Origin: Anaerolineales bacterium
GTDB taxonomy: Bacteria; Chloroflexota; Anaerolineae; Anaerolineales; Villigracilaceae
DNA: 47,182 nucleotides
Direction of reading: 5' to 3'
NCBI GenBank assembly: GCA_030680795.1
Contig: JAUXUL010000004.1
Span: 1-47,182, forward strand
In this document: positions 39,639-40,860 of the stretch, piece by piece
Layout: each line of letters begins with the position of its first letter
How positions within the stretch are numbered: position 1 is the stretch's first letter
Position numbers and translations under genes: made by a program
Notes under the pieces: generated by a model
Databases searched by the model: none
What the model saw: only the letters and a program-made list of their open reading frames with translations
What the model was told of the DNA's origin: nothing

Positions 39639-39667
39639 TTGACATTCAAAACCAGAGAGGTTATTAT
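39639..39667 (+). promoter_or_regulatory. Promoter of the FtsK/HerA-like ATPase gene
   Basis: TTGACA (39639-39644) and TATTAT (39662-39667) are separated by 17 bases on the plus strand. The predicted start point falls inside the adjoining palindrome, giving a leader of roughly a dozen bases. Confidence 0.8.
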
Positions 39668-39685
39668 TAGAACAGGTGTTCTAAT
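39666..39685. promoter_or_regulatory. SOS-box-like palindrome abutting the ATPase start codon
   Basis: ATTAGAACAGGTGTTCTAAT has exact 9-base arms around GG. Its core GAAC-AGGT-GTTC fits the GAAC-N4-GTTC LexA site of Gram-positive-type SOS systems, including the purine/pyrimidine preference of the central four bases. It overlaps the -10 box and ends at the ATG; AGGTG inside it may also serve as ribosome binding site. Confidence 0.6.
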
Positions 39686-40552
39686 ATGGATATAACAAAC
39701 CGCTTCGCCATGATGGTTGACGTATTAGCAGAAATTGCTCAGGAGGAGCAGGCGCATTCCCATTCCGGGACGCCACAATCTCCGCCCTTACCTAGTTTGC
39801 CAACTTTGAAATCCGTCCTCGCTGATGCCTCTCCACTTCCGCATGAAACGCTTTTCCTCGGCCTGGCCGAAGACGGCTTGCCTGTTCTGTTGAATCTATT
39901 GGACCCGATCCCCGGCCCGATCCTTATCACCGGCGACCAGGCCAGCGGCAAGACCACCCTCCTGCAAACCATCGCGCGCGCAGCAGACTTGCTCCATTCA
40001 CCCTCCGCTGTGCAATACGGTGTCATCACACCCCATCCAAATGAGTGGAAGAATTTTCATCGCAATCAAAACAACGTCGGGATTTATCTCACACAAGACG
40101 ACAACGCTGAAGAGCTTTTACATTCCCTGGTTACATGGGCGCATAACAACAAAGGTGAGCAGAAGTCCATCCTGCTATTGATTGACGATGTTGAAGCCGT
40201 TACTAACTTGAAACAACAAGCCGAGCAAAATTTACGCTGGCTGCTCCTGCGCGGCCCCGCCCGCCGCGTATGGCCCATCGTCACCTTGAATACAACTCGC
40301 GCACAAAGCATGAAAACATGGCTGGAATTCTTCCGCACACGCTTGTTTGGTTACATTGAAAATCCAGATGAAGCAAATTTTGTCACTGGCTGTTCGAACC
40401 ACACACTAAATCACTTGAGTGCAGGTTCGCAATTTTCCATGCGCGAAGGAAATAAATTAGTAAATTTTCTGGCTCCAACCATTGATTACTCACCTTACAC
40501 ACCCAAGCATGATTCCCTGAGCGACAGCGAAGGGTCTTTGAGACAATCGTAG
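39686..40552 (+). CDS. FtsK/HerA-like P-loop ATPase
   Basis: A 288-residue soluble protein. Residues 1-25 are helical; 54-75 (TLFLGLAEDGLPVLLNLLDP) resemble the strand pair preceding the P-loop in FtsK/SpoIIIE/EssC-type ATPases. Walker A is GDQASGKTT (83-91) and Walker B SILLLIDDVE (161-170). RGPARRVWPIVTLNT has an arginine pair as in a sensor or finger region. No transmembrane or DNA-binding domain is visible. The last 13 residues (after YTPKHDS) come from a dispersed repeat. It starts right after an SOS-box-like palindrome, so expression on DNA damage is suspected. Function unknown; DNA or protein translocation by a small standalone motor is a reasonable guess. Confidence 0.7.
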   Translation: MDITNRFAMMVDVLAEIAQEEQAHSHSGTPQSPPLPSLPTLKSVLADASPLPHETLFLGLAEDGLPVLLNLLDPIPGPILITGDQASGKTTLLQTIARAADLLHSPSAVQYGVITPHPNEWKNFHRNQNNVGIYLTQDDNAEELLHSLVTWAHNNKGEQKSILLLIDDVEAVTNLKQQAEQNLRWLLLRGPARRVWPIVTLNTTRAQSMKTWLEFFRTRLFGYIENPDEANFVTGCSNHTLNHLSAGSQFSMREGNKLVNFLAPTIDYSPYTPKHDSLSDSEGSLRQS

Positions 40553-40573
40553 AGATGCTTCGCTATCGCTCAG
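40517..40573. repeat. Inverted repeat covering the ATPase gene end
   Basis: CTGAGCGACAGCGAAG (40517-40532) and CTTCGCTATCGCTCAG (40558-40573) are complementary at 15 of 16 positions. The left arm lies inside the coding sequence and supplies its last codons; the right arm follows the stop. AGAGATGCTTCGCT-type sequence of this kind looks like a dispersed genomic repeat. Confidence 0.75.
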
Positions 40574-40623
40574 CATGACATCGCTTAAGGTGAGTTAATT
40601 AGTTCATAAGAAAGGAAAATCTC

Positions 40624-40860
40624 ATGCACACTGGAATGTTATGGTTTGACAACGACCCGCGTACAACCTTGAGCGTAAAAATCCAAAAAGCAATGGATTA
40701 TTACAGCAAAAAATTCGGACGTATACCCAACCTATGTCTGGTTCATCCAAGCATGTTGGAAAGCGGCCAAAAGCAATTTGAATTGGGAAATATAGCCATT
40801 CGTCCCTATCGGCCTGTTATGCCCGGCCACCTTTGGATTGGGGTTGAGGACCAGAAATAA
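40624..40860 (+). CDS. Small hypothetical protein linked to the ATPase gene
   Basis: A 78-residue protein, MHTGMLWFDNDPRTTLSVKI then QKAMDYYSKKFGRIPNLCLV and HPSMLESGQKQ, ending RPYRPVMPGHLWIGVEDQK. The regular helix (KIQKAMDYYSKKFG), the N-terminal strand LWFDND and the C-terminal HLWIGVE suggest a compact alpha/beta fold. No catalytic motif is recognised. AAGGAAAA precedes the ATG. It lies 71 bases after the ATPase gene in the same direction, with no promoter or terminator seen between them, so one transcript from the SOS-like promoter is likely. Confidence 0.7.
   Translation: MHTGMLWFDNDPRTTLSVKIQKAMDYYSKKFGRIPNLCLVHPSMLESGQKQFELGNIAIRPYRPVMPGHLWIGVEDQK

Follow-up and report, generated by a model that had tools for sequence, protein, structure and literature searches.

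LexA-controlled operons and an SOS-induced FtsK have both been described. The LexA operator GAAC-N4-GTTC is of the type found in B. subtilis and M. tuberculosis, as given in excerpts of two reports (PMC3323433, PMC4234289), and the E. coli ftsK gene is SOS-induced from the promoter dinH, according to the sections cited here (PMC4080785). For Chloroflexota, the literature searched holds no description of an SOS response or regulon, and the gene pair analysed here has no match among the regulon papers searched, as far as their available sections go. Nor did that literature describe the module, its link to LexA in this phylum, or DUF6504; the operon, the family of its 78-aa protein and the Chloroflexota operator were likewise not found there. 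Here, we follow up an initial annotation of one locus in the window, a stretch of DNA of 47,182 nucleotides. The explanation that we favour, with rather better than even confidence as a whole, is a LexA-repressed SOS operon of Anaerolineae with a role at damaged chromosomes.

Table 1 Features of the locus, in positions of the window.
Feature	Position	Strand	Basis and remarks
−35 hexamer TTGACA	39639–39644	+	Promoter match; bases 80–96% conserved in 46 family loci
−10 hexamer TATTAT	39662–39667	+	Promoter match and comparison of family loci
Putative LexA-type operator TTAGAACAGGTGTTCTAA	39667–39684	.	No mismatches; family loci; sites at lexA and recA
FtsK/EccC-type motor-domain protein, 288 aa	39686–40552	+	Open reading frame; Pfam; fold and sequence matches
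Walker A GDQASGKT, residues 83–90	39932–39955	+	Intact in this protein; altered or missing in some of the family
Walker B ILLLIDD, residues 162–168	40169–40189	+	Motif reading
78-aa alpha/beta protein, constant module member	40624–40860	+	Open reading frame; homologue searches; model

The initial annotation had described a promoter overlapped by a palindrome ahead of an ATPase gene and a 78-residue reading frame, and the arrangement and both frames are present (Table 1). The promoter, TTGACA-N17-TATTAT at 39639–39667, matches at 11 of 12 positions. The palindrome TTAGAACAGGTGTTCTAA is perfect over 18 bp, with the core GAAC-N4-GTTC and zero mismatches. Its 5′ end is the final base of the −10 box and its 3′ end lies one base short of the ATG (39686). 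It spans the last −10 base, the expected transcription start and the stretch directly ahead of the start codon, and a bound LexA dimer would thus block transcription.

Taken singly, these motifs are unremarkable. Promoter-like sites are not enriched relative to shuffles (2 found, 2.5 expected), the 12-bp core occurs three times in the window against 0.67 expected, and genome-wide there are 39 cores against 45 for a reversed control pattern. Allowing up to three mismatches, the 18-mer has 17 sites in the genome and the control 21; without a mismatch, the palindrome of this locus is the only one. The core motif alone was rejected as evidence, as it stands at chance level in the genome, and conservation was therefore needed to decide. 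Of 51 family loci (the window included; G045, cut by a contig end, is omitted), 46 carry an exact core close to the start, mostly at −16 from the ATG. Four of the remaining five match at 7 of the 8 core positions close to the start, while L167 matches at no more than 6. Conservation in the family loci extends to the flanks TTA/TAA and to the −35 hexamer, but not to the promoter spacer around the core. Because the core is conserved across the family loci, the question of chance is settled.

The same core precedes lexA. The best LexA-domain match of the genome (C19) was named lexA because it lies above the NCBIfam lexA cut-off, and TTGACA-CAGAACAGGCGTTCGAG-TATTAT lies ahead of it. The operator in the spacer of this promoter, GAACAGGCGTTC, shares its core with GAACAGGTGTTC, which stands before the FtsK-like gene. 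In all 30 lexA loci fetched, which come from the genus only and are the best 30 of 89 genomes with a match, the spacer holds GAAC-N4-GTTC. The possibility raised in the initial annotation, that lexA carries a different motif, is not borne out by this identical core, and for recA the picture is divided. The recA promoter of the genome reads TTGACT-TACTGAACATCTGTGC-TATACT, and the same place in the spacer is occupied in 22 of 22 genus loci of sufficient length (L444 was too short and a second recA of G016 was left out), with a form, GAAC-N4-GTGC, that deviates by one base. This form is also in place at recA in three of seven fetched loci from outside the family. A scan for the best core is weak on its own at recA, 81 of 600 shuffled windows reaching 7 of 8, and the fixed position in the spacer was relied on.

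Two further proteins of the genome (L027, L028) pass the LexA_DNA_bind cut-off weakly, and the palindrome might bind another dimeric repressor, its likeness to a LexA box being incidental. The core shared with lexA in every genus locus and the near form at recA make this highly improbable. The lexA core, the one-mismatch recA site and the operator conserved before the operon together argue, at the level of sequence, for SOS control of the pair, which we consider nearly certain. They also yield a candidate Chloroflexota LexA operator with sites at lexA, at recA and at the gene pair.

Two other sites were observed. At L034:986–1822 (G000 C21), TTGACA-N17-TATATT holds GAACAAATGTTC in its spacer, the same build as the operator promoter, and precedes a 261-aa reading frame with hydrophobic segments and no Pfam match at E ≤ 0.01; this reading frame is a probable further SOS target. 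At L033:985–1025 (G000 C41), ATAGAACACATGTTCTAT lies between a 130-aa HTH_3 regulator and an oppositely read 85-aa reading frame.

Conservation of the pair, and of the palindrome before its orthologues, had both been proposed for checking in the initial annotation, and both are seen. Of 101 genomes, that of the window included, 70 have a match to the first gene and 72 a match to the 78-aa gene; in family genomes with both, the two are mostly adjacent. Beyond these, the 78-aa family extends to 315 GTDB stretches, 34 viral contigs and 147 of 396 class genomes. Three wider sets of loci were fetched: L130–160 (31 loci, among them L159, a second copy from the genus of the window), L170–249 (the best 80 of the 315 GTDB relatives) and L338–397 (60 places from the 147 matching class genomes, 20 mostly from multi-copy genomes and 40 hand-picked down the list outside the family). 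In these overlapping sets, 13 of 31, 56 of 80 (best 80 of 315) and 22 of 60 loci have the box ahead of the motor gene or of the 78-aa gene. With duplicates removed (seven shared records), it is found at 88 of 164 fetched loci, the best 80 of 315 GTDB loci included.

By setting, the box occurs at 55 of 89 distinct fetched loci that have a motor gene, at 33 of 57 that have the 78-aa gene alone, and at none of 18 in the cell-wall (dcw) cluster; the 'alone' counts use a search that reaches motor genes sitting further upstream of the 78-aa gene. Outside the dcw cluster, this corresponds to 88 of 146 distinct loci, the other 58 having no exact core in the tested windows, where exact cores only were scored. 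Across these loci, 107 of 139 cores fall in the tested windows, against 2.2 predicted from the rate of the other 32. In family f49 (L358–L382), a second core recurs (for example CACCGAACACTTGTTCGTGT) roughly 2.1 kb ahead of the 78-aa gene and roughly 850 bp ahead of the motor gene, and probably marks another regulated gene.

The 288-aa protein is confidently modelled (AlphaFold2, pLDDT 88), and its best Foldseek matches are EccC (E 2e-12) and the FtsK motor (E 1e-10). The model superposes on the FtsK motor with a Z of 24.4 (rmsd 2.7, 234 residues aligned) and on 9jv8, of the EccC/EssC type, with a Z of 24.1; the sequence matches 4nh0, also of that type, at E 3e-17. NCBIfam EccCb is hit at E 6e-8, far below the family cut-off. 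Pfam FtsK_SpoIIIE is found at E ≤ 0.1 in 28 of 44 members (best 7.6e-10), while the window protein alone passes only the AAA_22 cut-off, its FtsK_SpoIIIE match (E = 0.01) lying below the curated one. A segment scan found no hydrophobic segment, and the Pfam matches include neither an FtsK alpha nor a gamma domain, in agreement with the initial view of an FtsK-like ATPase that lacks membrane and gamma domains and is not a normal FtsK. Relatives from sister lineages are mostly longer, at about 350–430 aa; of four scanned, L147 and L397 pass the Pfam FtsK_alpha cut-off and L144 and L365 fall short. These comparisons support a reduced descendant of an FtsK-type motor.

The Walker A motif has a different history in the two halves of the family tree, which were split at the midpoint root. 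In the half that contains the window protein, it has been altered or has disappeared in 22 of 58 rows, with eight state changes by parsimony, at least four of them forced by supported branches. The P-loop is intact in all 38 rows of the other half, which includes one short protein (L136, 273 aa). Scoring used GK[ST], as G....GK[ST] is too strict where the first glycine is replaced, which it is in many, and L110 is counted among the 22 although it keeps the lysine (DKT). Thirteen of 21 Walker A-altered rows (19 distinct) still carry the operator. The P-loop of the window protein itself looks functional. Since Walker A has been changed or lost repeatedly, an obligatory motor is unlikely in this half of the family; of the 'small DNA motor' first suggested, the FtsK-type ancestry stands and the motor activity is weakened.

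The end of the first gene has a feature of its own. A 15-bp inverted repeat with one mismatch (arms 40518–40532 and 40558–40572) spans the stop codon, and the gene continues for about 20 residues after the point at which the match to most relatives stops. Among the fetched loci, the sequence of the right arm is confined to those of the genome of the window.

The 78-aa protein was initially described as having no known family, and the searches agree: neither a Pfam family at E ≤ 1 nor a PHROG is matched, and NCBIfam gives a single match at E = 0.081. Its model is alpha/beta with a pLDDT of 91, and the segment scan finds no hydrophobic segment. Fold searches returned nothing significant (Foldseek best E 0.28), and the sequence search run alongside them gave no match at E ≤ 0.1. 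Identity within the genus is 72–91%, a range that leaves out G015 (broken frame), a partial match in G024 and a second copy in G047 (36%). Five residues hardly vary among boxed, dcw and viral copies, namely Trp7, Asp9, Ala23, Tyr27 and Trp71, with Phe in place of Tyr27 in 7 of 32 viral rows. This shared set of residues indicates that the protein probably has one and the same activity wherever it occurs. Groups are not resolved in a tree of the 78-aa proteins, which offer too few columns. Judged by sequence, the protein is probably an SOS target; it falls in no known family and turns up repeatedly across the class, in the dcw cluster and on viral contigs.

The 34 viral contigs, from IMG/VR (L250–L283), raise the possibility of another origin for the gene. 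In two of them, the 78-aa gene is adjoined by a ParA-type gene (L250) or a ParB-type gene (L258); a primase beside the copy in L275 was dropped, having no Pfam match. The gene could accordingly stem from a phage and have come under LexA after its capture by hosts, in the service of defence or prophage control, a reading with which the viral rows nearest to the window protein in the weak tree and a weak fold likeness to the HK97 capsid A-domain (Z 5.3, rmsd 3.9, 77 aligned) are consistent. Against it, the pair and its operator are conserved through the family, the window protein is unmatched at E ≤ 0.01 in 50,697 phage and 72,556 plasmid records, and none of the 34 viral copies has an operator within 300 bp, five of the loci having a core further off. 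We judge such a mobile-element remnant very unlikely.

Paralogues of the 78-aa protein also lie beside mraY and/or murD, at 19 loci (18 distinct); holA, mraY and murD are named in L132, L138 and L142 and were recognised by similarity elsewhere. Four genomes (G109, G175, G383 and G473) hold one copy with an FtsK-type gene and the operator and one dcw copy without it (L338–L354). This association, together with an FtsK-type partner and the two-helix membrane protein described below, which would suit the divisome, would fit an SOS division checkpoint in which the 78-aa protein, in the manner of SulA, YneA, SidA or SosA, holds back septation or the synthesis of septal wall after damage, and the FtsK-like protein only delivers it or poisons the FtsK ring. 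Loss of Walker A is compatible with such a dominant-negative or scaffold role. However, the 78-aa protein is well conserved and has no hydrophobic segment, unlike the small membrane inhibitors in the sections of the report cited (PMC6051672), and the dcw copies have no core before them. A checkpoint of this kind is therefore unlikely in our estimate.

Operons of the sister lineages often have further members. In 26 of 60 class-level loci, the 1.2 kb upstream of the 78-aa gene encode a two-helix membrane protein; no motor gene was found in four of these loci. Two hydrophobic segments were seen in each of the 11 membrane proteins scanned. The same 1.2 kb encode a DUF6504 protein in 11 of 60 loci at the class level and in 3 of 31 at the order level. 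With the membrane protein often and DUF6504 sometimes before the 78-aa gene, the sister operon looks like a split SOS-inducible FtsK with accessories. In the part of the family to which the window belongs, what remains, going by predicted genes, is the motor domain with the 78-aa protein, or the 78-aa protein alone.

DUF6504 also leads to the polymerases. In L421 and L425, from other families of the phylum, it lies between Y-family and DnaE-type polymerase genes. Among 30 DUF6504 loci fetched, five have a DnaE-type match, two of these (L421 and L425) also a Y-family match, and six a 78-aa homologue; in six genomes of family f92 (L422–L424, L426–L428), DUF6504 is paired with a divergent 78-aa homologue. 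As a general marker DUF6504 was rejected, since the high-scoring loci of family f1 that were read have other neighbours. A stand-alone ImuB-C domain of about 80 residues, with a conserved C-terminal tryptophan, lies near many SOS repair genes, according to excerpts of one report (PMC3765255), and we infer that DUF6504 may be such a stand-alone ImuB-C-like domain.

If so, the module could work with error-prone synthesis as an accessory of a translesion mutasome, which both the polymerase neighbours of DUF6504 and its position upstream of the 78-aa gene would suit. Several observations run against this. No DUF6504 was found in the genome of the window or in the 80 GTDB loci (best 80 of 315), and the one Y-family polymerase match of the genome has no exact box in its fetched locus. 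Neither imuB nor dnaE2 was read among the reading frames neighbouring the window genes, and across 255 fetched loci with the pair or the 78-aa gene, a DnaE-type match occurs in one only (L391, at the edge) and a Y-family match in none. We hold a mutasome accessory to be unlikely as well.

The favoured LexA-repressed operon would work as follows. DNA damage would lead to a RecA filament and to self-cleavage of LexA, releasing both genes. The 78-aa protein would act as the effector, and the FtsK-like protein, interacting with it, may serve as its DNA-bound carrier or scaffold, for which ATP-driven pumping would be useful and dispensable. For as long as repair takes, the pair would then deal with chromosomes that are damaged or unresolved, probably at the division machinery or close to it. 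This role, with its division into effector and carrier, is a tentative proposal to which we give somewhat less than even weight. A fuller scheme, which we put forward as speculative and on the whole rather doubtful, is an undescribed Anaerolineae SOS system made of a split damage-inducible FtsK (motor and membrane anchor), a DNA-binding helper and the 78-aa effector, which would couple damage to septum or wall synthesis and whose gene is also present in the dcw cluster and in phages. In this scheme, the effector would stay under LexA control even as the motor turns into a pseudo-ATPase and finally disappears.

An SOS-type switch before both genes in many related species suggests that the pair is probably an uncharacterised part of the response to DNA breaks. 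If the 78-aa protein is a damage effector, it would represent a new family for damage tolerance or a division checkpoint, and carriers among cultured thermophiles make the effector idea testable. The operator is present in two cultured carriers, Anaerolinea thermolimosa IMO-1 (L196) and Thermanaerothrix daxensis GNS-1 (L241).

Compared with known systems, the module shares with the ImuA-ImuB-DnaE2 mutasome a linkage through DUF6504 in other lineages of the phylum, but the genome of the window has no DUF6504 and its ATPase is of the FtsK type. ATPase domains 2 and 3 of EccC/EssC, from type VII secretion, are among the best sequence and fold matches of the 288-aa protein, which differs in being a single domain with an SOS-type operator. 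SulA, YneA, SidA and SosA resemble the 78-aa protein as small SOS-controlled proteins, a control that is predicted here, and its paralogues in the dcw cluster add to the likeness. Division inhibitors of the YneA, SosA and SidA type carry a membrane segment, whereas the 78-aa protein has no hydrophobic segment and a conserved alpha/beta model. The nearest precedent, in the sections of the sources cited, is E. coli ftsK with dinH, where an FtsK-type motor domain is likewise under LexA-type control. The window protein departs from it in lacking hydrophobic segments as well as matches to the alpha or gamma domain, and in belonging to the half of its family in which Walker A is dispensable; a separate division FtsK is assumed to be present in the genome. 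The operator itself is most like that of the GAAC-N4-GTTC SOS regulon: the core is identical, the operator lies over the promoter, lexA carries it, and recA has it in a one-mismatch form.
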